Positions 2-14,580 are shown, counted from the first letter of the stretch. The stretch is 24,056 bases of DNA from a virus (IMGVR_UViG_3300021178_000043:1-24056), one strand, 5' to 3'. Program-made: numbers and translations. The notes: generated by a model not told the origin, from the letters alone.

Positions 2-1072
2 ATCCCATTCTGCGGGGTAGCCGGAGCCGAGCTATCCCGCATCCTGATCGAGACCATCCCGAATAACCGTTATACGGCTGACTTCCGCTTTGCACTTGGG
101 CGCTCCGGATGGCACCAAATGCGGAACGTGTGGGCCAAGGAGGCGGGGATTGCCTTCACCAACGTGGCCGCACTCCGTCCGCCAAACAATGACTTTGACT
201 TCCTCCTCTGTTCAAAGAAGGAGCTTCCAGATGACTATCCTCCAATTCCCCCACTCGGAAGAGGGAGGCTTGCCTATCTCAGGCCGCAGTATTTGGGTGA
301 GCTTGACCGTCTCCGAGTCGAAATTGAACAAGCCAGACCAGTCTGTATCGTGGCGGCTGGAGCTATTGCGACCTGGGCCCTCCTTGGAAGAACTGACATT
401 AGCAATGTCCGTGGCACTGCGACAGTGGGTTCGCCAGGAGGGGTTGCTCCGGGAGTAAAAATCCTTCCCACCTATCACCCCTCCGCCGTATTGCCGGGAC
501 GTGGGAGACGGGAGTGGCGTATCATCTGCATGGCCGACTTCTTAAAGGCCGTCAGAGAGTCGGCTTCGCCGACTCTCATCCGGCCTTTAAGAAAAGCACT
601 TATCAACCCCACCATTCCAGAAATAAAAGAGTGGTATCTCCAATCCCAAAACAGTCTCACAGCCACGCTTGGAGTGGATTGTGAAACAGCAGGCTCTCTA
701 ATCACCTGCATCAGTTTCGCCGACTCGCCTACGTCGGCTCTCACAATCCCATTCCGCTCCAAAGACGGTACCCGCAATTACTGGCCCACTCCAGAAGAAG
801 AGATGGTTGCCTGGTTCTACGTTCATGAACTCTTAACGGGCGGCCGCCCCCTCCTCTTCCAGAACGGCATGTATGACATGCAGTATCTGATCCGCATGGG
901 CTTCAACCTGCGCAATGCGCGCGAAGATACCATGCTTCTACACCATTCCCTCTATCCAGAAGTGCAGAAGAGTTTGGGCTTCCTCGGCTCCATCTACACC
1001 AACGAGGCCAGCTGGAAACTGCTGGGCCGACACCGCGCAACCAAAGTTAAAGGAGAAAAACTAGATGAATGA
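2..1072 (+). CDS. Split family A DNA polymerase, N-terminal part: UDG-like domain plus first half of 3'-5' exonuclease (partial at 5' end)
   Basis: The frame is open to the window edge, so the ATG at 119 is internal and the true start is off the left side. The first visible residues (PFCGVAGAEL) match the PFxGxAG motif of the uracil-DNA glycosylase superfamily; TNVAALRPPNN and a late HPS (about visible residues 53-63 and 159-161) fit its other motifs. After a linker comes a DnaQ-like 3'-5' exonuclease: motif I DCE (D226, E228) and motif II NGMYD (N288, D292). The expected motif III (YxxxD) is missing; the protein stops after KGEKLDE, and motif III is at the start of the gene at 1459. Together the two products would rebuild one UDG-exonuclease-polymerase protein of the kind fused in other phages. 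The stop overlaps the next ATG by 8 nt. Domain calls are from motifs; activity and reassembly are inferred. Confidence 0.8.
   Translation: MPFCGVAGAELSRILIETIPNNRYTADFRFALGRSGWHQMRNVWAKEAGIAFTNVAALRPPNNDFDFLLCSKKELPDDYPPIPPLGRGRLAYLRPQYLGELDRLRVEIEQARPVCIVAAGAIATWALLGRTDISNVRGTATVGSPGGVAPGVKILPTYHPSAVLPGRGRREWRIICMADFLKAVRESASPTLIRPLRKALINPTIPEIKEWYLQSQNSLTATLGVDCETAGSLITCISFADSPTSALTIPFRSKDGTRNYWPTPEEEMVAWFYVHELLTGGRPLLFQNGMYDMQYLIRMGFNLRNAREDTMLLHHSLYPEVQKSLGFLGSIYTNEASWKLLGRHRATKVKGEKLDE
541..591. repeat. Compound hairpin, 11 bp outer and 10 bp inner arms, between UDG and exonuclease domains
   Basis: Outer arms: CTTAAAGGCCG (541-551) and CGGCCTTTAAG (581-591). Inner arms: GAGAGTCGGC (555-564) and GCCGACTCTC (568-577) around TTC. 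A 3x3 internal loop separates them. It codes for FLKAVRESASPTLIRPLRKA in the linker of the polymerase N-terminal gene. Confidence 0.9.
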
Positions 1073-1451
1073 ACCAACTCCAGGAGATGGTTACTGGTAT
1101 ATGGCCGGTCCATACTCCGACAACATAGAAGAGCGCTATCAGCAGCATTTAAATGCGGTCTCTGTTTTGACGCGAGCCAAGCTCACCATATACTCTCCAA
1201 TAGTCCATTATCATATGGTAGCCCAAGTGTTTAATATGCCAACTAATGCAGCCTTCTGGAATGAACATAACTACAATATGATACTCCCATCTAGAGGAGT
1301 AATTCTCCTATGTCTTACAAATTGGGCTGACTCAAAAGGAGTCAGGAGCGAGCTTAATTTTAGCAGAGACAAAGGAGTCCCTGTCTGGGCACTCGATCCG
1401 CCAATCTATCAAGGGACTGAAGTAAACCTCGTATGGACTCGCATGATCTGA
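1065..1451 (+). CDS. DUF1937 / nucleoside 2-deoxyribosyltransferase-like protein lying inside the split polymerase
   Basis: A 128-residue protein with the GYWYMAGPYSDN start typical of DUF1937/DUF4406-like, nucleoside 2-deoxyribosyltransferase-related proteins, and a later DSKGVRSEL segment. The Glu of that segment corresponds to the catalytic nucleophile region of nucleoside deoxyribosyltransferases, so an enzymatic role in nucleotide metabolism is possible but not shown. The start ATG follows a strong Shine-Dalgarno (AAAGGAG, 1049-1055) and overlaps the previous stop; the next gene begins 7 nt after its own stop. The central part is clearly richer in A and T than the flanking polymerase halves, which fits independent acquisition. 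Its position between exonuclease motifs II and III is the odd point: it splits a conserved domain rather than lying between domains. Confidence 0.75.
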   Translation: MNEPTPGDGYWYMAGPYSDNIEERYQQHLNAVSVLTRAKLTIYSPIVHYHMVAQVFNMPTNAAFWNEHNYNMILPSRGVILLCLTNWADSKGVRSELNFSRDKGVPVWALDPPIYQGTEVNLVWTRMI

Positions 1452-1458
1452 GATTTTA

Positions 1459-2997
1459 ATGCCAATTATCCAGACAGCCGCAATAGAACCTGGCAAACTG
1501 AATATTGAGGAGCAGCATCAGACCTATTGTGCGCTCGACTCCATGCTCACCCTGGAGATCCTTGAGAATATTAATCGGGAGCATCCGGGCGGAGCAGAGC
1601 CCATCTACTCCTTTGAGCGGGCGCTTCAAGCTCCTCTCCTGGAGATGGCTCTTCACGGCTTCCTCGTCGATGGACTGGATCGGCACCGTATGGAGCTTCA
1701 AGTTAAAAAGAAGGTGCAAGAGTCCCGCATGGTGCTGGACGAGCTAGCTCAGCCTATCTGGGGCAAGAGTCTCAACCCCCGCTCTCACACCCAGCTGTCC
1801 GAGTTCTTCTATAAGACTATGAAAATCCCAGAGATCTGGCTCTCCTTCAAAGGCGAAAGACGGCTGTCGGTTAATCGGGAGGCCCTGGAGAAGATAGATG
1901 AGTATATGTATGCTCGTCCGCTGGTCTCTCTTATCCTTTCATGCCGCGACTTCTACAAGCAGTTGGATGTTTTGACGGAGGAGATAGACGAAGATGGACG
2001 ACACCGAACGAGCTACAATATTGGCGGTACGGAGACTGGTCGATTATCTTCGTCAACTTCCGTCCTCGGAACGGGAGGCAACGCTCAGAATATTGCTCCT
2101 GAACTTAGACGGGTCTTTATCTCAGATCCAGGCTGGAAGCTCTGCTCAATTGACCTCGAACAGGTTGAGGCGCGTGACGTGGGTTTCATCTGTGGTTGCC
2201 TGTTTGGGGATTGGTCTCTCCTGGATTCTTGCGAGTCGGGGGACTTCCACACCAACAACTGCAGACTTATATGGCCAGATCAGCCTTGGCCAGCCGATCC
2301 CGCTGGTTGCCGTCAGCTGGCTGAACGCATCCCCGTCTACCGCGACTGGACTATGCGGGATTTGGCCAAGCGAGGAGGCCATCTCACCAACTACAACGGC
2401 ACCGCCTGGACAATGAGCCGCGTGCTAAAGCTCCCCATCAAGGTATGTGCGGAGTTCCAGGCTAGATATTGTCGTGGCAGTAGCCACGACAATATCAGGC
2501 CAGCCTATCCCGCACTTCGCCAATACTGGAACTGGATAGCTGACCGGCTCCAGACAAAAGGCTCTATAACAACTCCGTTTGGAAGACAGCGTCACTTCTT
2601 CGGAGATCAGCGGAGCGATGCGACCCTGCGGGAGGCGATCGCATTCGTTCCCCAATCAATGACTGCCGACAGGACTAATTTGTGGCTCTGGAAGGTATGG
2701 GCAACTCTCCAAAACCGTATCCAGCTATTGGCACAGACACACGACTCCATCACATTCCAGTTTCGCGAAGACGACGACATTGACGAAATAGTCACTATCG
2801 TCTTAGATTTGTTAGGCGACATTAAGCTCGTAGACTCGAAGAGTCTACGAGCTTATATGGCGCCGGGGGCTGCTAAAGTAGGATGGAATTGGGCACCTGA
2901 GTCGGAAAACAATCCGGCCGGACTAATGAAGTGGAGGAGGGGAACACAAGACAGGCGCTCCAGGCCGAAAGGCCTGGAGCGACTGATGGGAGGATGA
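1459..2997 (+). CDS. Split family A DNA polymerase, C-terminal part: exonuclease motif III and polymerase domain
   Basis: The 512-residue protein starts just before exonuclease motif III (YCALD, residues 23-27), so its first residues complete the exonuclease of the upstream gene. Polymerase landmarks follow: TETGRLSS (191-198); motif A with D232, E237, R239; motif B with R300, K304, Y312 and GT 314-315; motif C THDS with H428-D429, where the usual HDE has Ser in third place. This is the PolA-type replicative enzyme. The only upstream in-frame codons before a stop are TCT, GAG, ATT and TTA, so ATG 1459 is the start; its Shine-Dalgarno is weak and translation may be coupled to the preceding gene. 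Three perfect hairpins lie inside the coding sequence, at residues 336-346, 455-466 and about 500-508; the first two look like in-frame insertions. The stop is 6 nt from the next start. Confidence 0.9.
   Translation: MPIIQTAAIEPGKLNIEEQHQTYCALDSMLTLEILENINREHPGGAEPIYSFERALQAPLLEMALHGFLVDGLDRHRMELQVKKKVQESRMVLDELAQPIWGKSLNPRSHTQLSEFFYKTMKIPEIWLSFKGERRLSVNREALEKIDEYMYARPLVSLILSCRDFYKQLDVLTEEIDEDGRHRTSYNIGGTETGRLSSSTSVLGTGGNAQNIAPELRRVFISDPGWKLCSIDLEQVEARDVGFICGCLFGDWSLLDSCESGDFHTNNCRLIWPDQPWPADPAGCRQLAERIPVYRDWTMRDLAKRGGHLTNYNGTAWTMSRVLKLPIKVCAEFQARYCRGSSHDNIRPAYPALRQYWNWIADRLQTKGSITTPFGRQRHFFGDQRSDATLREAIAFVPQSMTADRTNLWLWKVWATLQNRIQLLAQTHDSITFQFREDDDIDEIVTIVLDLLGDIKLVDSKSLRAYMAPGAAKVGWNWAPESENNPAGLMKWRRGTQDRRSRPKGLERLMGG
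2465..2496. repeat. Perfect hairpin, 14 bp arms, inside the polymerase domain
   Basis: GATATTGTCGTGGC (2465-2478) pairs exactly with 2483-2496 around AGTA. It codes for residues 336-346 (RYCRGSSHDNI), just before PAYPALRQYW, where related polymerases usually continue directly from the helix into an (F/A)xPG/A-x-R-xYW segment. Confidence 0.9.
2823..2855. repeat. Perfect hairpin, 15 bp arms, near the polymerase C-terminus
   Basis: TAAGCTCGTAGACTC (2823-2837) pairs exactly with 2841-2855 around GAA. It codes for residues 455-466, where polymerases of this type have a short basic strand leading to the final GxNW. Confidence 0.9.
2956..2981. repeat. Perfect hairpin, 11 bp arms, GAAA loop, at the 3' end of the polymerase gene
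   Basis: CGCTCCAGGCC (2956-2966) pairs with GGCCTGGAGCG (2971-2981) around GAAA, a GNRA tetraloop. The ribosome binding site of the ATPase gene follows 7 nt later. There is no U-run, so it is not a classical terminator. Confidence 0.85.
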
Positions 2998-3003
2998 GTT
3001 GTC

Positions 3004-4191
3004 GTGCCATCTGGGGACTTGGTCAATCAATTTATGGCATACACTGAAGGTATGCAATCATGCACTCTTTATCGTAAGTGGTGCGCCATCACTATGGTCG
3101 CCGGTGCAATGGAGCGCCGCATCAAAGCAATCTCAGGTCGAGACACTAACTATGCAAATCTCTACGTGATGTTAGTCGGCCCTCCCGGCAGCGGTAAGAG
3201 CGTAATCAACGTAGTCCGCGACCTGTGGGACATGACCCGCAACGAGCTTGGCGCACCCGCCTTCTATTCCGGGGCGAACGACTCCACGAAGGCAGCCCTC
3301 TTCGACGCACTCAACAACGCCTCCCAAATCCATACCCTAACCCAATTCAAATATCACTGTCTGCTGCTTCCCATCGAGGAGTTCTCTAACTCTTTCTCAA
3401 AGTTCGAGGCTGACATCCTCGCATTCCTCACCACAATCTATGATGCCCCTCCGCACTTCAAAGAGTGGCGGCGAAAGAGTGGGGAGACAAGAATTGACTA
3501 TCCTCTCATAACAGCCCTCTTCGGCTACCAGCCCGCCCTTTTAGAGAAAATCCTGATGAAGGATGCTCAGGACCAGGGTTTCCTTCGACGCTCCATCCTT
3601 GTATGGAACGAGGTAGCTGACAGAATTTCCCCCTTCAACTCACCCACAATCAACATGGCTCTTCAGGCGGAGATATGCGAACGTCTCAGCGAAATCAGTC
3701 TGATTTGCGGGGAGATGGAGTGGTCCCAAGGAGCCAAAGATTATCTGACCAAGTGGCATCTTGCTGGCGGGCCGCCTCGTCCCCTTCACGAGGACTTAAA
3801 AAACTATAATACGTCGCGCAGCCAATTTGTAATGAAACTGTCCATGATAGCATCAATGAGTGAGAGTCCATCCATGTCAATTCAGCTTTCTCATGTAGAG
3901 CGCGCCCTCCAATGGCTGCTGGAGGTCGAGGATGTGATGCCCAACGCCTTCAACAGCGCCAAGGGCGAGTCAGAGATCCGCGTCATCAGAAAGCTTCACG
4001 CCGCCATCCTCGTCAAAATGAGCGCCGGTCAGCCTATAACGACTGCCTTCCTCCACACCTGGCTGAGCGAGAGGGTCAAGCCTCAGGTCATCCCCTACAT
4101 AATCCAGAATTTGGTGGTGCGTGAAATCATCGTCCAGAAAGACGATAAGACTTGGCGTGTCACAGGCAAGACTCTAACCGACCTCGGATAG
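3004..4191 (+). CDS. P-loop ATPase, probable replicative helicase (DUF3987-like)
   Basis: A 395-residue protein with a clear Walker A (GPPGSGKS, residues 59-66) and a hydrophobic strand ending in acidic residues (CLLLPIEEF, about 119-127) that can serve as Walker B. The general layout resembles the DUF3987 ATPases found next to phage and plasmid replication genes, and the position directly after the polymerase supports a helicase or primase-helicase role. No zinc finger or primase catalytic motif is visible, so primase activity is not claimed. The start is GTG; the polymerase stop is in the same frame 6 nt upstream, and GGGAGG at 2988-2993 is the ribosome binding site. The 3' end overlaps the oppositely oriented HTH gene by 18 nt. 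Confidence 0.7.
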   Translation: MPSGDLVNQFMAYTEGMQSCTLYRKWCAITMVAGAMERRIKAISGRDTNYANLYVMLVGPPGSGKSVINVVRDLWDMTRNELGAPAFYSGANDSTKAALFDALNNASQIHTLTQFKYHCLLLPIEEFSNSFSKFEADILAFLTTIYDAPPHFKEWRRKSGETRIDYPLITALFGYQPALLEKILMKDAQDQGFLRRSILVWNEVADRISPFNSPTINMALQAEICERLSEISLICGEMEWSQGAKDYLTKWHLAGGPPRPLHEDLKNYNTSRSQFVMKLSMIASMSESPSMSIQLSHVERALQWLLEVEDVMPNAFNSAKGESEIRVIRKLHAAILVKMSAGQPITTAFLHTWLSERVKPQVIPYIIQNLVVREIIVQKDDKTWRVTGKTLTDLG

Positions 4192-4425
4192 ATCCGCCTC
4201 ATGTTCTTCAATCTGAAGCTCATTATATTGCAGAATACCTGTGGCCACTGCAATGGCCACCGCCTGCGGCAAATTAACTGCATTCAGTTTTAATCTGACA
4301 CGATCCAAATAAGTCTTGACTGAGGGGAACGTAAGCCCAATAATAACACCTGTCTCTGCATAAGTCTTCCCGCGTGCAATCCACAGCAGACATTCACGTT
4401 CCCTGCCCGAAAGCTCGTGCCTCAT
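4174..4425 (-). CDS. Stand-alone LuxR/GerE-type helix-turn-helix protein
   Basis: The 83-residue protein is almost entirely one LuxR-type DNA-binding domain: LSGRERECLLWIARGKT, then GLTFPSVKTYLDRVRLKLNA, then QAVAIAVATGIL (about residues 5-64). These match the conserved positions of the GerE fold, including the recognition helix. There is no acyl-homoserine-lactone or receiver domain, so it is not a complete quorum-sensing or response regulator. Similar free-standing domains are common in alphaproteobacterial genomes. The start overlaps the stop of the preceding ejection-protein gene (ATGA) with no Shine-Dalgarno, so it is probably translated by coupling and made late. The stop overlaps the end of the convergent ATPase gene. 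It may regulate phage late genes or host promoters, or act as a decoy; the sequence does not decide. Confidence 0.8.
   Translation of the reverse strand: MRHELSGRERECLLWIARGKTYAETGVIIGLTFPSVKTYLDRVRLKLNAVNLPQAVAIAVATGILQYNELQIEEHEADLSEVG
4241..4260. repeat. Short inverted repeat in the HTH gene (7 bp arms)
   Basis: GTGGCCA at 4241-4247 pairs with TGGCCAC at 4254-4260 around a 6-nt loop. It lies in the codons for the alternating Ala-Val segment of the HTH protein. It is shorter than the other hairpins of this window and may be chance. Confidence 0.4.
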
Positions 4426-6725
4426 TTATTTTGCCCAACCCCAAAGCCCAGCTTGTTAGGCTCTGGTGGAGGTGCAGAAGCAGTCCCGGCTTGAAGCAAA
4501 TTTCTCACTGCATGAGGATTTTGGTAAAGTTCTTTCGCTCCCTGTGTCATTCCATACATACCAAGGCCAGCAGCACCACTCATTAACTGCTGACCCCAGT
4601 CTGGCATTTGCATTCCAAACTCATTCAGTAAATGCTGTCCTCCCAAATAGCCGCTCGCCAGCGAGGGCATATTCCTAATCCAGAACGGAAACTCCCTTCC
4701 GCCAACTGACGTAGCCCTTCTCTGCAGCTCTTTGGCCCAAGCCGTCAACTGCTGTGTCTTCGCCTTAGCATTCTCCTCCGCCTGACTTAATCCAATCTTA
4801 GTCTTTGCCCTTACATTAATGTCCACGTCCCTCAGTCTAGCTCCATGTGAAATAATTTGCTGTTTACCCTCCTTGGCCGCATCAGTCATCTGTTGATGTT
4901 GTGCATCGGCAGCCGCCTTCGCATCAGCAGCCGCACTCTCAGCCGCCGCTCTCTTAGCCGTGATAGCATCCAGAGCTGGCGCATGTGGCCCGAACATCGC
5001 CGCCTTAGCCTCTGGCAGCTTATCATAAGCCGTCTCAGCTTCCCTGCCACCCGCCCTCAGTTTGGACGCTGCCACCTCATTGACCCCTTTATCCAGCGTC
5101 GGCTCCGATCGCAGCTGACTTATCTTCGTGCTGTCATTCCACAGCCCCTTATTATCCGCCAGCATCTTAGGAGTGATAGTCTCTTTCCCCACATTCGTCG
5201 TCGTAACAATATTATCTCCTACAGTCCCTGCCACACCAAACAGACGAGTCGCCTCCTTATTGAATTTGTCGAACGCATCCAGCCCTTCTTGCCCCGCACT
5301 CTTACTAACAGCCGCCCTTATATCATCATTCACCCCTCTATACATCTCATTCAGCTTCTTCACCCCAATCCCAGAGATCACTGACGGGTCGCCTAACGCA
5401 TCCCCAATGGCCGACCTAATATTCCTCAGATCCGCAAACGTAAACTGAGGAGCTTGCCCGGCTGGCAATCCCTGCTTTTGAGCCAGCATATCCAGCTTAG
5501 CATTAACTGCTTCTGGCAGCCTGCTTCTAAACATTGCCGCGATCGGCTCACCTTCTATTCCCGCTCCCGTCACATAAGAGTGCTCTATAGAGCTTTTAAG
5601 ATGAGTTGCATCGCCAAGCGCATCCTGCGGAACCAGCGTACCCTGACTATGATCTACAGGATTTTTATAAAACATCCCCTCTTCAGCCTTGTTTAGCGCT
5701 GGCTTAAACTCACTCCCCAACCATTGCCGGGCCTGATCTTGCATCTTCCCCGTACCCTCTTCCAGCGTCTTCGACGTCCCCAACTTAGCCGCAGCAGCCT
5801 CTCGGTCCGCATCCGCTCCCGTATGCTCAGTCTGCAGTTGTGTATCAGCCGCTGTAGTCTGAATGTCGTGCGCCTTGTCAATATCTGTCTGCGAACCCTT
5901 CTTGAATTGTTTCGCTACTTCCTGCGCTCCCTGAGTCTGTGCCTTCTGCAACTGCTGTTCATCAGGTGCTGCAATGTCGTGAGCTTGTCTAGCCGCAGTG
6001 GCTTCAGCCTGCTCTTTGGCCGCCTGCTCTGCAGCCTGAGTTGCCGCCTGCCTCGCACTTGACTCTCCCCACAGCCGCATGAAACCAGTTCCAGTGAGTG
6101 CAGCTGGCAAACTTGCCCACAGCGGACTTGTGTTAGTATAGTGGTGCCACAGGTCGCCAATAGCCGATGGTATATAAGTGTAACCTAAATTAGCTGCTCT
6201 AGTCATTCCCATCGCTTCGCCCATCGGCAACGTGGCAGTCGCTTGTCCAGCTCCCCTTATTATCTGGCTACTAAGATCTTTCGGCTGAGTCGGGTCATAC
6301 CCAATATTTTTCTGCGCCTCCCCCAGCATCTCGCTCGCCGTATGAGGCGCGAGGAACCTTGTCAGCGCATTATCCGGAATATTAACTCCAAGCTTAGAAA
6401 GCCCAGAACCTATTGCATGTTCTGCTATGGCGGGCAGTCCTAGCATCCCAGCTCCACCCTCAATCGCCCCCTGATAAAGCTGATGTGGCGTACCCGCTAT
6501 AACATCTCCCCAAGTTCGAGGCGTAGCACTGCCACCTTGCGGTACAGCAGCCCCTGGCAACGGAGGTGCAGCAGCCCGCAATGCTGCCCCTCCAGTCAAG
6601 GGAGCCGGAGCACTCCCTGGAACAGTACCTTGTAGCGGCTCTTCTGGTGTCGGTGCTTGCACCTGTGGTTTAAGCTGGGCACGTAATGCGGCTGCCCCAG
6701 TCAGTGGTGGTTGGTTATCAGCCAT
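4422..6725 (-). CDS. Large internal virion / ejection protein candidate
   Basis: A 767-residue protein without a recognised catalytic motif. The N-terminus has a short duplicated unit (PLTGAAALRA and PLTGGAALRA, about residues 7-50) separated by Pro-rich sequence. The middle (about 215-330) and a later segment (about 590-670) are rich in Ala, Gln, Glu and Lys and should form long helices or coiled coils. Near the C-terminus are Gly- and aromatic-rich stretches. Large size, Ala/Gln-rich helices, and position at the end of the late operon after other low-complexity proteins fit the ejection proteins of podoviruses (P22 gp16/gp20 class), but no direct homology is claimed. The start at 6725 follows an AGGTGAG ribosome binding site. 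The 3' end overlaps the HTH gene by 4 nt. No long hairpins were seen in this gene. Confidence 0.6.
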   Translation of the reverse strand: MADNQPPLTGAAALRAQLKPQVQAPTPEEPLQGTVPGSAPAPLTGGAALRAAAPPLPGAAVPQGGSATPRTWGDVIAGTPHQLYQGAIEGGAGMLGLPAIAEHAIGSGLSKLGVNIPDNALTRFLAPHTASEMLGEAQKNIGYDPTQPKDLSSQIIRGAGQATATLPMGEAMGMTRAANLGYTYIPSAIGDLWHHYTNTSPLWASLPAALTGTGFMRLWGESSARQAATQAAEQAAKEQAEATAARQAHDIAAPDEQQLQKAQTQGAQEVAKQFKKGSQTDIDKAHDIQTTAADTQLQTEHTGADADREAAAAKLGTSKTLEEGTGKMQDQARQWLGSEFKPALNKAEEGMFYKNPVDHSQGTLVPQDALGDATHLKSSIEHSYVTGAGIEGEPIAAMFRSRLPEAVNAKLDMLAQKQGLPAGQAPQFTFADLRNIRSAIGDALGDPSVISGIGVKKLNEMYRGVNDDIRAAVSKSAGQEGLDAFDKFNKEATRLFGVAGTVGDNIVTTTNVGKETITPKMLADNKGLWNDSTKISQLRSEPTLDKGVNEVAASKLRAGGREAETAYDKLPEAKAAMFGPHAPALDAITAKRAAAESAAADAKAAADAQHQQMTDAAKEGKQQIISHGARLRDVDINVRAKTKIGLSQAEENAKAKTQQLTAWAKELQRRATSVGGREFPFWIRNMPSLASGYLGGQHLLNEFGMQMPDWGQQLMSGAAGLGMYGMTQGAKELYQNPHAVRNLLQAGTASAPPPEPNKLGFGVGQNK

Positions 6726-6732
6726 AACTCAC

Positions 6733-8361
6733 CTATTTCTTAGGCTTCAGATCTGGATGCATAGTGTCGTACATGTCATCCATTGCTTTTTCCGCTGGTC
6801 CATCCGGATCATCTGGGTTATCTTTCGGCTTACCAAACAATCCCCTTTGATAAGCCTGCGTCAGATGCGTGTCATCAGTAAATTTTATGTGACTTCCATC
6901 CAACACAATCCCTTCTTTCGCCAACTCCTTTTGAGCCTCGGCGAGCGGCGTTGCAATCTTATTGTAGGCTACATCCGATCCAAGCAGCGACCCACTGCTA
7001 TTTCCAGGATGCGCTATATATTTCTCCTTAAATTCATACTTTCCAATATCCCAATTAGCTAACGCCTTCAGTCCCGCAGTCAATACCTTAAAAGCCAATG
7101 GAGTATTTTCCATACTTGGCACGGCCGCAGCAGCCTCCATCAGCACACCTAACCCTCGTCCGTTCGTTCCATCAAGCGCATTTTTCAGAGCAAATGGCAA
7201 GGCATGAGCCCACTTGTTAATAACCTGAGCATCTGCATCTTTAGCAGGCAGTGCTGCATCACCAGTAAATTTCGTGCCCAATACATTCTCAGCAGTTTCC
7301 ATTGCATTCGAGATGGCTCCTCTAGCCGTACCAAACAAGCCAGGCACTGTAAAGCCACCTCGAGCTGTCAAATCATCGGCAGCTGATTGCATCTGACCAA
7401 GGCTATTGAGCATTCCTCTATCACCATTATAAGCTGTCAGTTCTGGTCCACTATGCTGCTCTTTAAGATTTTTGTCCATCTCCCCAAACTTATCTTTATC
7501 AATAATATTTCTCCCCTCCGTAGTGACGACCGGATTTCCCTGCCTATCTCTCACCAGATAAGGAGTGACTCCCGACACATCAATCGGAGCACTAGCTCCA
7601 GTTGCTGAGTTAGTGAATGTTGTAGCTTCCGTCGGAGCCTGCGTGGGCGGCAAAGTTCCAGAGATGGGACTTGTAAATCCACCACGCCCTGCCTCAAGCG
7701 TAGAGGGCACATACCTTGGAACCTGATCAGGACCAACCACAGTGCTAGGCAGAACTGCTGCTAGGCGGTCACGATCACCACCTGCGCTCACATACCCACC
7801 AGCTATCAAACTTTGAATGGCCTTCCTTGCCTGTGCAGCCTGCGCTGGATCATTCATATTCAGTCCTTGAATTTTGGCTGCAATCCCCGCCTTCATTGCA
7901 TCAACCCGCGGTTTGACAAAATCCATCGCTTCTGGAGCAACTCCACTCATCGCACCATCAATATACTTATTCCAATTTTGGGGGTCATCCGCAGCCTGCA
8001 AACCAGCCGTAGCCACATTAAGAAACGAGTCCTGCCCCAGCTTCGTCTTTGCAGCCGCCGTACTCATTCCAATCATCTTCGTCTGAGCCTGCCTCGCAAT
8101 CATCTCTGTCGCAGTATTCAATCCCTCTTGAGCAAACCCTGCAATCAGCGGATTTTGTCTAGCCTGAGCAAGCCCCTCCTCCATAGTCGGAGCATGAGCC
8201 ATAGCCTCCCCCAATGCCTGGTTGGCCATAAACTCCGCCTGGAACTTCCTATTCGCATTGGACTTATTCTGGAAATCCATTAGGGAGTTAGCCATCCCAA
8301 TCGGATCACCAAACCCTGCTCCACCAGGTTGTCCAGTCGCTTCAGGTATCAGTCCAGGCAT
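6733..8361 (-). CDS. Internal virion / ejection protein candidate
   Basis: A 542-residue protein of unrecognised family. The N-terminal third is helical and rich in Ala, Gln, Met and Asn; the middle (about 210-270) is Pro/Thr/Ser-rich and probably flexible; the C-terminal third is a mixed globular region ending in an acidic and lysine-rich tail. No signal peptide or catalytic motif is evident. It lies between two other low-complexity virion-like genes, which suggests a virion-internal or DNA-delivery role. The ATG follows directly on the stop of the preceding gene (TAAATG), with GGAGGAG as the ribosome binding site inside the end of that gene, so the two are probably translationally coupled. 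Confidence 0.55.
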   Translation of the reverse strand: MPGLIPEATGQPGGAGFGDPIGMANSLMDFQNKSNANRKFQAEFMANQALGEAMAHAPTMEEGLAQARQNPLIAGFAQEGLNTATEMIARQAQTKMIGMSTAAAKTKLGQDSFLNVATAGLQAADDPQNWNKYIDGAMSGVAPEAMDFVKPRVDAMKAGIAAKIQGLNMNDPAQAAQARKAIQSLIAGGYVSAGGDRDRLAAVLPSTVVGPDQVPRYVPSTLEAGRGGFTSPISGTLPPTQAPTEATTFTNSATGASAPIDVSGVTPYLVRDRQGNPVVTTEGRNIIDKDKFGEMDKNLKEQHSGPELTAYNGDRGMLNSLGQMQSAADDLTARGGFTVPGLFGTARGAISNAMETAENVLGTKFTGDAALPAKDADAQVINKWAHALPFALKNALDGTNGRGLGVLMEAAAAVPSMENTPLAFKVLTAGLKALANWDIGKYEFKEKYIAHPGNSSGSLLGSDVAYNKIATPLAEAQKELAKEGIVLDGSHIKFTDDTHLTQAYQRGLFGKPKDNPDDPDGPAEKAMDDMYDTMHPDLKPKK

Positions 8362-9000
8362 TTACTCCTCCTCTTCTTCCCCGGGGCCACCTTCGCCTTG
8401 CGGCGAAGGAGTCCCCATTCCACCAGGAGCTAATGCTCCTCCCATTGGAGCGCCGCCTTGCGGCGCTCCTGGCATGGCTCCTTGTGCAGCCATATGTCGC
8501 TGTTTGATTGAGTGGACATGGAGAGAGGCCATACCAGTAATGGCCCTATGGACAGCGGACGCCTTAAATTTCTGTTGCAGCATTTGATCCATCTGCTGCG
8601 CTCTCTGATCTTGCTGTTCAACCCACGCTTGGAGCGCCTCCCCTCCAGTGGTCGGCATCTGCGCCAGCATCTGCGCCAGCGCTGTCGGACTAAACCCGGC
8701 TCCCACCATCGTCCCAGCCCCTTCGATCACATCCTCCACCTGGATCTGATCCCCTTTCTTCTTCAGCGAGTCCAACATACTCCTTGCAACATTCATCCTC
8801 TTCACAGAAGCTTGCAACTGCTTATGCTGCGCTTGCGCCTGTTGCCAATTCTGTTCAACGTGCTGCTCCACGCTAAAATTGCCCGGACTTTGCCCCGGCG
8901 GCTGAGGTTTCGCCAGCGCATTCGGAGGACCACCCATCGGAATGCCAGGAGGCATTCCACCCGGCATCACACCTGGGGCCATTGCATTCCCATTAGGCAT
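8362..9000 (-). CDS. Small Gln/Met/Gly-rich internal virion protein candidate
   Basis: The 212-residue protein begins with a Met/Pro/Gly-rich segment (residues 1-40), followed by a long helical Gln-rich region (about 42-165), and ends with Gly/Pro-rich sequence and a run of Glu. The family is not recognised. The composition and position within the putative ejection block suggest a virion-internal protein or assembly partner. The start has an excellent Shine-Dalgarno (AAGGAGG, about 7 nt upstream). Two perfect hairpins fall in the codons for the Gly/Pro-rich C-terminal part (8390-8409 and 8447-8469). Confidence 0.55.
   Translation of the reverse strand: MPNGNAMAPGVMPGGMPPGIPMGGPPNALAKPQPPGQSPGNFSVEQHVEQNWQQAQAQHKQLQASVKRMNVARSMLDSLKKKGDQIQVEDVIEGAGTMVGAGFSPTALAQMLAQMPTTGGEALQAWVEQQDQRAQQMDQMLQQKFKASAVHRAITGMASLHVHSIKQRHMAAQGAMPGAPQGGAPMGGALAPGGMGTPSPQGEGGPGEEEEE
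8390..8409. repeat. Perfect hairpin, 8 bp arms, GNRA-type loop
   Basis: CCTTCGCC (8390-8397) pairs with GGCGAAGG (8402-8409). The loop reads GCAA on the transcribed strand, a GNRA tetraloop. It is in the 3' part of the coding sequence at 8362-9000. Confidence 0.75.
8447..8469. repeat. Perfect hairpin, 10 bp arms
   Basis: GGAGCGCCGC (8447-8456) pairs with GCGGCGCTCC (8460-8469) around a 3-nt loop. It encodes part of the Gly/Pro/Ala tail of the protein at 8362-9000, 37 nt from the 8390 hairpin. Confidence 0.8.
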
Positions 9001-9799: not shown

Positions 9800-10315
9800 C
9801 TAAGCCTCCTCCTGGGTGGGGGAGCTTCGCTCCCCCACCCAAAGCATGTAAGTCTGTTGAATAGGAACAGCTCCCAGACTTTGGAAGAACCGTCCCAATC
9901 TCACTCCCCTGCCTTGGAGTCTATGATGCGGAAACACACACTGTACGCCGATCTTCTTCAGCTCATCCAAACTGACCATGAACAGCTTGGCGGCCCCTCC
10001 CCACGGAGCACCCTCCCCCACATACCACGCTCCTTGCGTTGCAATGGGCAGCCCCTCACTCTCCAAATCCCAGTTTACATTCCATGAACAATATCCATAA
10101 ATCTCACCATCCACTCTCAACGTAAACCACCTAATAAATCCCAGCCTGTCCGCCTGAATGATCCGCGCCACATCCAGCTTAAACGGTCTCGGACTCCCTT
10201 CTGGCTCAACCTCCTTAGCATGAGCCCTCGTCAGATCTCTGATCGCAGGCCAAATAGCCTCAAACGGCTCCCTCTGAACCCGGACAAATCTATGCGGAAC
10301 AGCCTCAGCTAACAT
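9800..10315 (-). CDS. GNAT-like acetyltransferase family protein of phage type
   Basis: A 171-residue protein starting MLAEAVPHRF. The TTG codon two codons upstream is too close to the GGAG ribosome binding site, so ATG at 10315 is preferred. The order of strands and helices, with GEIYGYCSWNV in the middle, a GAWYV-GEGAPWGGAAKLF segment (about 96-112) where the acetyl-CoA-binding turn would be, and GVRLGRFFQSLGA near the end, fits the divergent GNAT proteins that many phages carry in their late region. The substrate is unknown. It overlaps the sulfotransferase-like gene by 11 nt, so the two are likely made together. A perfect 13-bp hairpin forms codons 159-168, immediately before the ribosome binding site of the next gene. 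Confidence 0.6.
   Translation of the reverse strand: MLAEAVPHRFVRVQREPFEAIWPAIRDLTRAHAKEVEPEGSPRPFKLDVARIIQADRLGFIRWFTLRVDGEIYGYCSWNVNWDLESEGLPIATQGAWYVGEGAPWGGAAKLFMVSLDELKKIGVQCVFPHHRLQGRGVRLGRFFQSLGAVPIQQTYMLWVGERSSPTQEEA
9813..9841. repeat. Perfect hairpin, 13 bp arms, GAA loop, just before a ribosome binding site
   Basis: The arms are TGGGTGGGGGAGC (9813-9825) and its exact complement (9829-9841). On the transcribed strand the apex reads GCGAAGC, a sequence known to form an unusually stable mini-hairpin in DNA. It encodes the end of the GNAT-like protein and is followed at once by GGAGGAGG and the start of the 9011-9799 gene. No U-run follows, so it is not a classical terminator. Confidence 0.85.
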
Positions 10316-10883
10316 TTGCAATCTCCAGCTTCAGCTTCACAATGTTGTCCGCATTCCTTCGCAGCTCCTCAACCCTTTTCTGCATATCAACTTGAACATT
10401 CATAGGAGTCCATTGAGCCCACCATTGGAAATTCCATGGAACGTCCAAACAATACTCCCAAATCCACCTCGCACAGCTCTCCAGATCTAAATCATTATAA
10501 GCAACCGTCCTTACCCCACTCGCACTAACCGTCCACAGATCCCTGACCCTCTGGCTCCAGTCATCCGGGTCAACAGTAATCCCCTTCTTCATCAAACTAT
10601 GAAGGCAGTCCATCGGCTCCCTCTGTACCACCAGCATCTTCGCCTTTGGTATCTTATCCCGAAGCATCGGATAAGCAAAGGCAGCTCCAGTCTCCACAGT
10701 CCCATCTAACCCCCCTCCCGGCGCATAAAAGAGAGAAAGACATTCCGCAACATTCGAGCATCTACTAAATGCGTCGTGCCCAACCGACTTCACCCGGCTC
10801 CCATTCTCAATATAGGAGAGCCAATGGCTCAACCATGCAGTCCGACTGCGCGGCAGAGCAAAGATGATGAATGGCTCATGCAT
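10305..10883 (-). CDS. Sulfotransferase-like P-loop protein
   Basis: The 192-residue protein opens with FIIFALPRSRTAWLS (residues 5-19), which matches the PAPS 5'-phosphosulfate-binding loop of sulfotransferases (PRSGTTWL type). A second segment, VVQREPMDCLHS (85-96), matches the 3'-phosphate-binding motif (RDPxDxxxS). It is shorter than most bacterial sulfotransferases, and the acceptor is not predictable. The start is ATG at 10883, which shares one base with the preceding stop (TGATG) and has GGAGG at a 6-nt spacing; the upstream in-frame codons have no comparable ribosome binding site. Its position after the tail genes and before a GNAT-like gene suggests modification of a virion or host surface component late in infection. 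That role is inference. Confidence 0.7.
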   Translation of the reverse strand: MHEPFIIFALPRSRTAWLSHWLSYIENGSRVKSVGHDAFSRCSNVAECLSLFYAPGGGLDGTVETGAAFAYPMLRDKIPKAKMLVVQREPMDCLHSLMKKGITVDPDDWSQRVRDLWTVSASGVRTVAYNDLDLESCARWIWEYCLDVPWNFQWWAQWTPMNVQVDMQKRVEELRRNADNIVKLKLEIANVS

Positions 10884-11350
10884 CAGAAGCCTCCAGGAAA
10901 CCAAACAGCCGACGGCGCAGGCCCATACCAGATCACGTTTATGTGATCGCCCTCCACCATAACGATCTGCCCACCCAGCATAGACGCCTTATAAAAGTTG
11001 ACCCCATCCCTCGAGTAATCCACTTCCCCGCCCGACAGCGCCATAAACCCGTTCACCGTGGCCCTAAAGGGCCACGGCGAACTTACCAGTGTTTGAACGA
11101 CAGGAGCCGATTTAGCAACTGGTCCTCCCCCGATCGGTGTCCCATTGCTCGGTCCTGGTCCTGAAATGACTGGCCCAGCTGGCGTCTCAATGACCACATA
11201 GGAGTTTTGAATATTTGTTGTCCCGCCACCCGTCTTGGCCCACAGCGCCTGAAAGAAATATTGCCACGCAGGCGTGAGCTGTCCGAAGCCATCCACAATC
11301 TGGAAGTCTTTCGGAAAAGACGACGAGAACTGGTAGGGGTTAACGCCCAT
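10883..11350 (-). CDS. Small tail / fibre-associated protein
   Basis: A 155-residue protein. The N-terminal part contains LTPAWQYFFQALWAKTGG (about 25-42), a pattern seen in many small podoviral structural proteins located next to the tail hub and fibres. The middle is Pro/Gly/Ser-rich; the C-terminus has short strand-like segments and ends GPAPSAVWFPGGF. No enzyme motif is present. The start overlaps the stop of the gp10-like gene by one base (TGATG) with little Shine-Dalgarno, which suggests coupled translation. The hairpin at 11051-11082 lies within the codons for SSPWPFRATV. Confidence 0.5.
   Translation of the reverse strand: MGVNPYQFSSSFPKDFQIVDGFGQLTPAWQYFFQALWAKTGGGTTNIQNSYVVIETPAGPVISGPGPSNGTPIGGGPVAKSAPVVQTLVSSPWPFRATVNGFMALSGGEVDYSRDGVNFYKASMLGGQIVMVEGDHINVIWYGPAPSAVWFPGGF
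11051..11082. repeat. Hairpin, 9 bp perfect plus 4 bp outer arms
   Basis: CCGTGGCCC (11056-11064) pairs with GGGCCACGG (11069-11077) around TAAA. Beyond a single mismatch, GTTC (11051-11054) pairs with GAAC (11079-11082). It is inside the coding sequence of the small tail protein. Confidence 0.8.
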
Positions 11351-12972: not shown

Positions 12973-14580
12973 TCACCGCATACGTCTGGCCCCAATATAT
13001 CCCATACCCGCCGTCGTTCCTCCACCAGTAACCTGCGCAATCAGAAAAACACTCTTGGAGGCATTCGTATTGACCCTACACCTTCCAGTCGGTATAAAGA
13101 ATGCTCCAGACTGCAATCCACCTTGACTCTGAAACATTGCTGCAGTCCCATTCAACACATTAGCCGTAGTCGGCAATGCAGCACTCGTATTACTTACCCC
13201 CACAATCACCTGCGATGGACCATTCTGCGCAGTAAAATAGACCACGCCAGACACGTCCCAATCACCCGCTGTCAGTGCCAGCGTAGCAATATTGGTCGGC
13301 GTTCCGCTCGTAATACCTACTCCAACTGTCACCGACGCAAACAGCACCTCTCCCACACACCCAGCCGGAGGATTATCTCCCGCTACCGATCCCAGCAGGT
13401 TCAGCACCCCCGTCATATTCACGCCGCCAGCCTGCGGCACCTTCGTATCCGAATACTGTTTGGTGACAGCGCCGAGCGGCGCAGTCGGATCGCCGGACAG
13501 CGTCAGAAGCCCGGACATGATGTCGCCAGACTTCGACACCTTATTGCCGTCCGCTGGATGCACATGATCCGCTCTGGCCCACGTGATCCCCGTCCCAACC
13601 GCTGCTGTCCCCGCCATCAGCGGAACAGTAGTGGAAGGCCCCGGCACAGCAGCATCCACATACTGCCTCGGAGTCGCCATCAACGCTGTCGTCGGATTAC
13701 CATTGAGCGTCAGCGGCCCTCCCATCGTATCGCCAGACTTCGACAGCTTACTCGGATCAGACGGATGCTGATGGTCCCCCCTCGAATAAACTGCCGACGT
13801 CCCTGCCGACCCAGTTCCATCCGGTGCAGGCACCGTATTCGACCCAGCCGGAACAATGGGAGCTGGTACAAAAATACGCGTATCAGTCCCCAGAACAGCC
13901 GTATTCCCCGTATCCGTACTCACCGCACTGGGTCCGGCTGGACCTTGCGGTCCAGCCGGTCCCTGTGCTCCCGTATTCCCCGTATTCCCAGTCGGCCCAG
14001 CCAGTCCCTGCGGTCCTTGCTGTCCAATCGGACCCTGCGGACCCTGCGCCCCAGTCAGCCCAGTATTCCCAGGCGGTCCCTGCTGTCCAGCCGGGCCTTG
14101 CGCTCCCGTCAGTCCAACATCTCCCTTAGGACCTGCCGGACCCTGTGGCCCAGCAGCTCCCACTCCGCCATCTTGCCCGGCGGGACCAGGCGGTCCCGCC
14201 ACTCCAGCCGACCCAGGTGTTCCCTGCGCCCCAGCCGGACCAGCAGGCCCAATTGTCCCAGGCGCTCCTGATGGTCCCTGCAACCCAGTCATGCCAGGAT
14301 TTCCCTGGTCTCCCTTCGGTCCAGCCGGTCCTTGAGGCCCCGTATTCCCTGGAGGCCCACTCGGCCCAACCGGTCCCTGCGGGCCTGGAGGCCCAACACC
14401 TCCCTGACTTTCGTCCAACACAACCCAGTCGCCACTCTGCATCCCATAGACCTGCCCATCCACAGGCGCAGTCACCGGATGACTATCAGCCTCAGCAGCC
14501 AGCGTTTGTAAATCCAGTCCGGTCGGCATCACCGGCCCAGTAGAGACGTTGAAGCTCGGATACTTCCCAGTAACTGTCAT
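12973..14580 (-). CDS. Collagen-like tail fibre
   Basis: A 535-residue fibre protein. The N-terminus ([17 protein letters not shown] and LDLQTL) is shared with the fibre gene at 16709-17641 and is probably the common attachment or assembly segment. Residues 60-218 form 53 uninterrupted Gly-X-Y triplets, which should make a trimeric collagen-type rod. After it come two fibre-type repeats containing GDHQHP and [13 protein letters not shown], then ADHVHP and [13 protein letters not shown], and a C-terminal beta-rich domain ending [10 protein letters not shown]. It probably acts in host recognition at the tail. The start has GAGGAGG and lies 32 nt after the preceding gene, in a gap occupied by a perfect palindrome. 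Confidence 0.85.
13927..14403 (-). repeat. Collagen-like Gly-X-Y repeat array (53 triplets)
   Basis: The coding repeat is Gly-X-Y without interruption. Frequent triplets are GPA, GPQ, GPP and GNT, with occasional PKGD segments. Because the Gly-Pro codons GGN CCN are nearly self-complementary, some inverted repeats here are expected from composition, including CCGGCTGGACC at 13934-13944 paired with 13949-13959. Confidence 0.9.

Follow-up and report, generated by a model that had tools for sequence, protein, structure and literature searches.

The UDG-exonuclease-PolA replicase of a diverse phage clade has very probably undergone an ancient, lineage-wide fission, after which its two chains reassemble and keep proofreading while the slot between their genes exchanges nucleotide-metabolism genes. 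Specifically, we propose that an ancestral phage UDG-exonuclease-polymerase (family A) gene was cut into gene A, which encodes UDG and most of the exonuclease, and gene B, which encodes the polymerase preceded by the final, motif III-bearing helix of the exonuclease. The A and B chains would bind each other and rebuild one DEDDy active site, such that proofreading would be retained, and binding would probably be helped by clade-specific tails at the C-terminus of A and the N-terminus of B. Both genes remain in one packed operon, where their translation would be coupled, and the space between them would gain and lose nucleotide-metabolism genes, mostly of the deoxyribosyltransferase type, such as DUF1937.

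The break in the exonuclease fold

The window is the whole stretch of viral DNA analysed here (IMGVR_UViG_3300021178_000043:1-24056; 24,056 nucleotides). Its features relevant to the replicase, all on the plus strand, are as follows.

2-1072, + strand: gene A, UDG-like domain and N-terminal part of a DEDDy 3'-5' exonuclease with motifs I and II (open reading frame, PF03167, phrog_17)
677-679 and 683-685, + strand: D and E of exonuclease motif I (VDCET), invariant in 110 of 110 split loci
863-865 and 875-877, + strand: N and D of exonuclease motif II (NGMYD), invariant in 110 of 110 split loci
1031-1069, + strand: C-terminal tail of gene A, KVKGEKLDE, clade consensus TxK(R/K)(D/E)(E/D), candidate docking tail (alignment, model)
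1051-1055, + strand: Shine-Dalgarno sequence AGGAG of the DUF1937 gene, within the last codons of gene A (sequence read directly)
1065-1451, + strand: DUF1937 gene, nucleoside 2-deoxyribosyltransferase superfamily (open reading frame, PF09152, phrog_355)
1459-2997, + strand: gene B, exonuclease motif III helix and family-A DNA polymerase (open reading frame, PF00476, phrog_17, model)
1459-1503, + strand: N-terminal extension of gene B, MPIIQTAAIEPGKLN, clade pattern MxIIxT, candidate docking segment (alignment)
1525-1527 and 1537-1539, + strand: Y and D of exonuclease motif III (YCALD), invariant in 110 of 110 split loci
3004-4191, + strand: DUF3987 primase/helicase-like gene, downstream in a common replication operon (profile matches)

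Three further genes of the window lie on the minus strand: one for a small HTH protein of the LuxR/GerE type at the convergent end of the replication operon (4174-4425), one for a sulfotransferase-like protein amid structural genes, whose PF00685 match falls below the cut-off (10305-10904), and a tail fibre gene with collagen-like G-X-Y repeats (12973-14580).

The window edge truncates the 5' end of gene A, leaving about 32 first codons outside; in a near-identical record, L001, the gene is complete and encodes 388 amino acids. In profile searches, gene A matches PF03167 with 26.6 bits (cut-off 24.3) and phrog_17 at positions 554-788, and gene B matches positions 808-1230 of the same PHROG family. 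Gene B also scores 102 bits against PF00476 (cut-off 34.3), which places it among the family-A polymerases. An AlphaFold model of the full-length L001 gene A product (mean pLDDT 91.4) matches family 4 UDG and UdgX structures over residues 1-225 (Z 17-18), and this fold together with the PF03167 match assigns the protein to the UDG superfamily as family 4/UdgX-like. Residues 230-364 match the EXD2 exonuclease (Z 12.2), and the modelled domain is an exonuclease that lacks its last helix. A Foldseek search also pairs gene A with the phiLo family-A polymerase of known structure (PDB 9qhs), which is a single polypeptide; because the VIA list for gene A holds mostly UDG chains, the Klenow matches of the exonuclease part rest on Foldseek. 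The gene B model (mean pLDDT 93.2) matches Klenow-type polymerase structures with Z values of about 28-32.

Together, the two chains carry the full set of DEDDy motifs, with ExoI (DxE) and ExoII (NxxxD) on A and ExoIII (YxxxD) on B. An earlier note on this DNA had described a UDG-exonuclease-polymerase gene split inside a single exonuclease fold, and this description holds. When the chains are aligned with unsplit homologues, as that note had suggested, the break maps to the loop between an 'SWK' segment past motif II and the motif III helix, with a tail on either end. Fused relatives read through the junction uninterrupted (for example, YWKDDGKTWSASMDERVLWRYNCEDC). Chain A of the split clade ends with SWKLMR...(T)xKRDE and chain B opens with MxIIxT...YNGLDC, and both the C-terminal tail of A and the N-terminal extension of B are absent from the fused relatives.

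The tail of gene A is predicted to be disordered on its own (residues 376-388 of the L001 copy, pLDDT <50). The arginine codon of -KRDE differs among loci, suggesting that it is the protein that is constrained. At several loci, the nucleotides for -KRDE double as the ribosome-binding site and start of the following gene, and the tail may in part encode such signals. The resemblance between the ends GEKLDE and GKLNIEE had been ascribed, as one option, to a small duplication at the insertion point. We rejected this candidate because the two sequences belong to different, separately conserved tails.

Between A and B of the window lies a gene that matches PF09152 (DUF1937; 34 bits against a cut-off of 23, 5e-08) and phrog_355, which makes it a member of the nucleoside 2-deoxyribosyltransferase superfamily. 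PF14359 and PF05014 are relatives, and PF05014 itself scores under its cut-off. The gene is complete and, with a GC fraction of 0.444 compared to 0.550 and 0.535 for genes A and B, AT-richer than its neighbours, as the earlier note had stated. The ribosome-binding site credited to it exists, but AGGAG sits inside the last codons of gene A, with which the DUF1937 gene shares 8 bases; the gap to gene B is 7 bases. Since the insert encodes DUF1937, the window does not fit the kind of gene split by a homing endonuclease that is represented by Aeh1 nrdA.

The split clade and its gene slot

In an initial search, three loci (L001, L002 and L003) were found to keep the gene order of the window, and in a fourth (L004, 72% identity) a DUF1937 gene precedes gene B at the contig start. 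The isolated Caulobacter phage Kuura has the equal break, with two unrelated small ORFs between A and B. Profile searches then yielded 121 non-redundant loci with both parts, 111 of them split, and in 110 of these (all but L171) the break falls at about positions 370-388 of the exonuclease profile and 1-20 of the polymerase profile. In a 92-row polymerase tree, built by a quick method and with long outgroup branches, the 78 split rows group together in a single clade (SH-aLRT 99); these representatives share less than about 75% identity with each other. No fused member was found inside the 78-row clade of this tree; its closest fused relatives, Mel-JY34, MW202489 and others, branch outside it. 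Thus, related phages do carry the split that the earlier note had proposed to look for: 110 loci, with 78 representatives in a single clade.

Nearly all members of the split clade come from uncultured phages. A DNA-level search of annotated phages gave zero matches, and a scan of bacterial genomes returned just two MAG contigs, L172 and L173, each of them split. Polymerase loci that lacked gene A in the profile search are cut off close upstream by a contig start, except for three distant annotated-phage outgroups. Two loci show other arrangements. In L164 (5911-7439), gene A is cut additionally between its UDG and exonuclease parts, with about 330 bases between them. L171, which falls with the fused polymerases outside the split clade, has a separate adjacent split in a similar place (5830-8386) that may be a frameshift error.

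At least 100 bases separate the two genes in 100 split loci, and this interval has a median coding fraction of 98% and a maximum length of 3.3 kb. Seven loci have no insert, and there the stop of A and the start of B overlap by four bases, which indicates that the genes are not kept apart by the insert. Short overlaps are also the commonest junctions elsewhere: at the end of gene A, 8-base overlaps (29 of 96) and 4-base overlaps (11 of 96), and at the start of gene B, 1-base and 4-base overlaps (19 each). With stop and start codons that overlap in this way, translation of the genes may be coupled.

The cargo of the slot is enriched for nucleotide metabolism and includes DUF1937/DUF4406, DUF7768, MazG, dCTP deaminase/dUTPase, TSCPD, deoxynucleotidase, ribonucleotide reductase and DNA ligase genes; a few slots hold HNH, GIY-YIG or endonuclease VII genes. 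The ribonucleotide reductase gene occupies the slot of L028 (3010-4770) and the ligase gene that of L024 (4346-5263). DUF1937-type genes (cluster CL0) occupy 23 slots, and they and the DUF7768-type genes are remote relatives (hhalign probability 84.5%). When 50 whole virus records were searched with the independent model phrog_355, 27 had matches, all 27 of them inside the slot, which makes up 40 kb of the 2.18 Mb searched (26 matches were placed by program, and the last, in L088, from its position). This enrichment is owed partly to shared descent rather than to independent events. Moreover, in the fused Mel-JY34, and in L131 and L168/L169, a deoxyribosyltransferase gene adjoins the replicase without lying inside it, so that its link to the replication operon extends beyond the slot. 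Judged from the sequences, the DUF1937 gene of the window is one tenant of an old slot.

If the slot is old, did an insert create it? Inserts were gained or lost at least six times on the polymerase tree, and parsimony at the base of the clade assigns a cost of 6 to an ancestor with an insert versus 8 to one without. An insert-free ancestor with directly overlapping genes is therefore not favoured. For a deoxyribosyltransferase-type insert in the ancestor, the costs are equal (19 versus 19). A gene inserted in the clade ancestor might thus have caused the fission and later been lost from the insert-free loci; it may have been an early gene of the deoxyribosyltransferase type, or one for a homing endonuclease that has since disappeared. 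We give this origin a substantial chance, although somewhat short of even. The slight parsimony preference for an insert-bearing ancestor agrees with it, as do the tracking of polymerase distances by DUF1937 distances (r = 0.75), the few endonuclease genes among the inserts, and precedents of the T4 type (PMC2988022). However, the inserts come from many unrelated families and their presence has switched repeatedly, and a deoxyribosyltransferase gene that already adjoined the replicase, as in Mel-JY34, L131 and L168/L169, could have moved into a ready-made gap. The claim that the replicase gene was split by the DUF1937 gene may therefore hold for the clade ancestor, but is not supported as a local event, given a clade-wide break with varied inserts or none. 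Regardless of which came first, insertion as the cause departs from the fission and reassembly that we favour in origin only, and not in present function.

Probable proofreading by two chains

The six exonuclease residues (D, E, N and D on A; Y and D on B) are identical in all 110 loci. For 54 of these 110, which were collected with polymerase-only patterns, the exonuclease motifs were no selection criterion. Among close relatives, dN/dS is about 0.03-0.1 for both the last 110 codons of gene A and the first 40 codons of gene B, indicating that purifying selection acts on both sides of the break. Seven records were searched over their full length, and each half is present once in them, with no second intact exonuclease or polymerase copy. 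Covariation between A and B was computed from about 92 effective sequences and is dominated by hub columns. The invariance of ExoI through ExoIII across the split loci strongly indicates that the two chains associate for proofreading, as the earlier note had argued they must unless proofreading was lost.

Loss of proofreading would leave gene A as a UDG-like or nuclease-like protein only, with motif III of gene B as a relic. Dead exonuclease domains are common among family-A polymerases, Taq being one example, and exonuclease function is read here from sequence conservation. Nevertheless, exonuclease domains in decay lose motif residues, whereas all six are invariant in this clade and purifying selection is strong on either side of the break. 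We consider such a loss improbable.

It is less probable still that A and B are joined after all, whether by self-splicing of an intron, by an intein, or by frameshifting or bypassing at the ribosome. Introns are frequent in phage polymerase genes. Moreover, the authors of a study of OM43 phages suspected an intron for another split (PMC10580990). Here, however, the interval between A and B is essentially all coding, the inserts vary from nothing at all up to 3.3 kb, with genes for ribonucleotide reductase and ligase among them, and gene B retains its own start even at insert-free loci. No Rfam match was found in the window region or in 12 loci searched, and this blank together with the 8-base overlap and 7-base gap, which leave no space, rejects a group I or II intron; the earlier note had likewise judged the non-coding sequence too short for self-splicing. 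Profile searches revealed no intein domain in gene A or gene B, and the termini of both adjoin exonuclease sequence directly, unlike those of a split intein. Finally, although the window is a single metagenomic record, an assembly join or sequencing frameshift at 1030-1510 is barely credible, because the gene order recurs in independent metagenomes (L001, L002, L003 and L017) and the break is also present in the isolated phage Kuura.

Relation to known split replicases

Split phage replicases are already known, and the break in the exonuclease fold is a new variant. In OM43 phages MEP401 and MEP402, and in most of their phage group, the PolA coding sequence is divided into two ORFs that flank a small unrelated one (PMC10580990, Microbiol Spectr 2023). 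These phages thus resemble the split clade in having a family-A polymerase in two ORFs around an unrelated one. However, their break lies in the polymerase domain and leaves the exonuclease intact on the first chain, and a UDG domain is unmentioned. In Vibrio phage VS-ABTNL-3 (L015, 2200-5334) and in L166, L168 and L169, the exonuclease and polymerase are likewise fused and the split falls at about profile position 212, within the polymerase domain; in L015, the halves flank a 184-aa ORF. Together with MEP401 and MEP402, these loci show that fission has occurred more than once in this polymerase family.

Further parallels, drawn from a review (PMC2988022), are provided by Aeromonas phages 25 and 44RR, whose gp43A and gp43B are reported to co-purify with polymerase activity, and by the split NrdA of Aeh1, whose products are reported to assemble and to have NrdA activity. 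These are also replication or nucleotide enzymes in two genes around an insert. They differ in that the enzymes are a family B polymerase or RNR, the inserts are homing endonucleases or untranslated sequence, and the splits occur in individual phages or small groups; the cut described here passes through the exonuclease fold, is shared by an entire clade and comes with metabolic cargo. The replicase of Microcystis phage Mel-JY34 has homologous UDG-exonuclease and polymerase parts in equal order, but in one gene and a single polypeptide without the A and B tails. Within the clade, a cultured reference is Kuura (OQ067476), with its equal split and two small ORFs in the slot. Its UDG-exonuclease half, Kuura_029 (WCD44107.1; L005, 4210-5319), is annotated as hypothetical, and the split is unmentioned in the Kuura paper (PMC9959647). 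A literature search that covered few subscription journals found no paper on a polymerase split in its exonuclease domain.

One speculative extension, which we consider rather unlikely as a whole, is that proofreading has become a separable subunit function. The exonuclease site would then form only when the UDG-exonuclease chain docks via the tails, fidelity could be tuned by the subunit ratio, and the deoxyribosyltransferase-type enzymes of the slot could cooperate with the replicase, for example in its nucleotide supply.

The split also carries a warning for annotation: even the isolated phage Kuura has its gene A listed as hypothetical, and polymerases of this kind may seem exonuclease-deficient. 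In the phages of the split clade, nucleotide-metabolism genes have a marked site in the slot. That so diverse a clade has kept a cut through the proofreading fold of its replicase would mean that this active site can be built stably from two chains, and these phages may offer a natural setting in which to test proofreading in trans and to design two-part polymerases whose fidelity can be switched.
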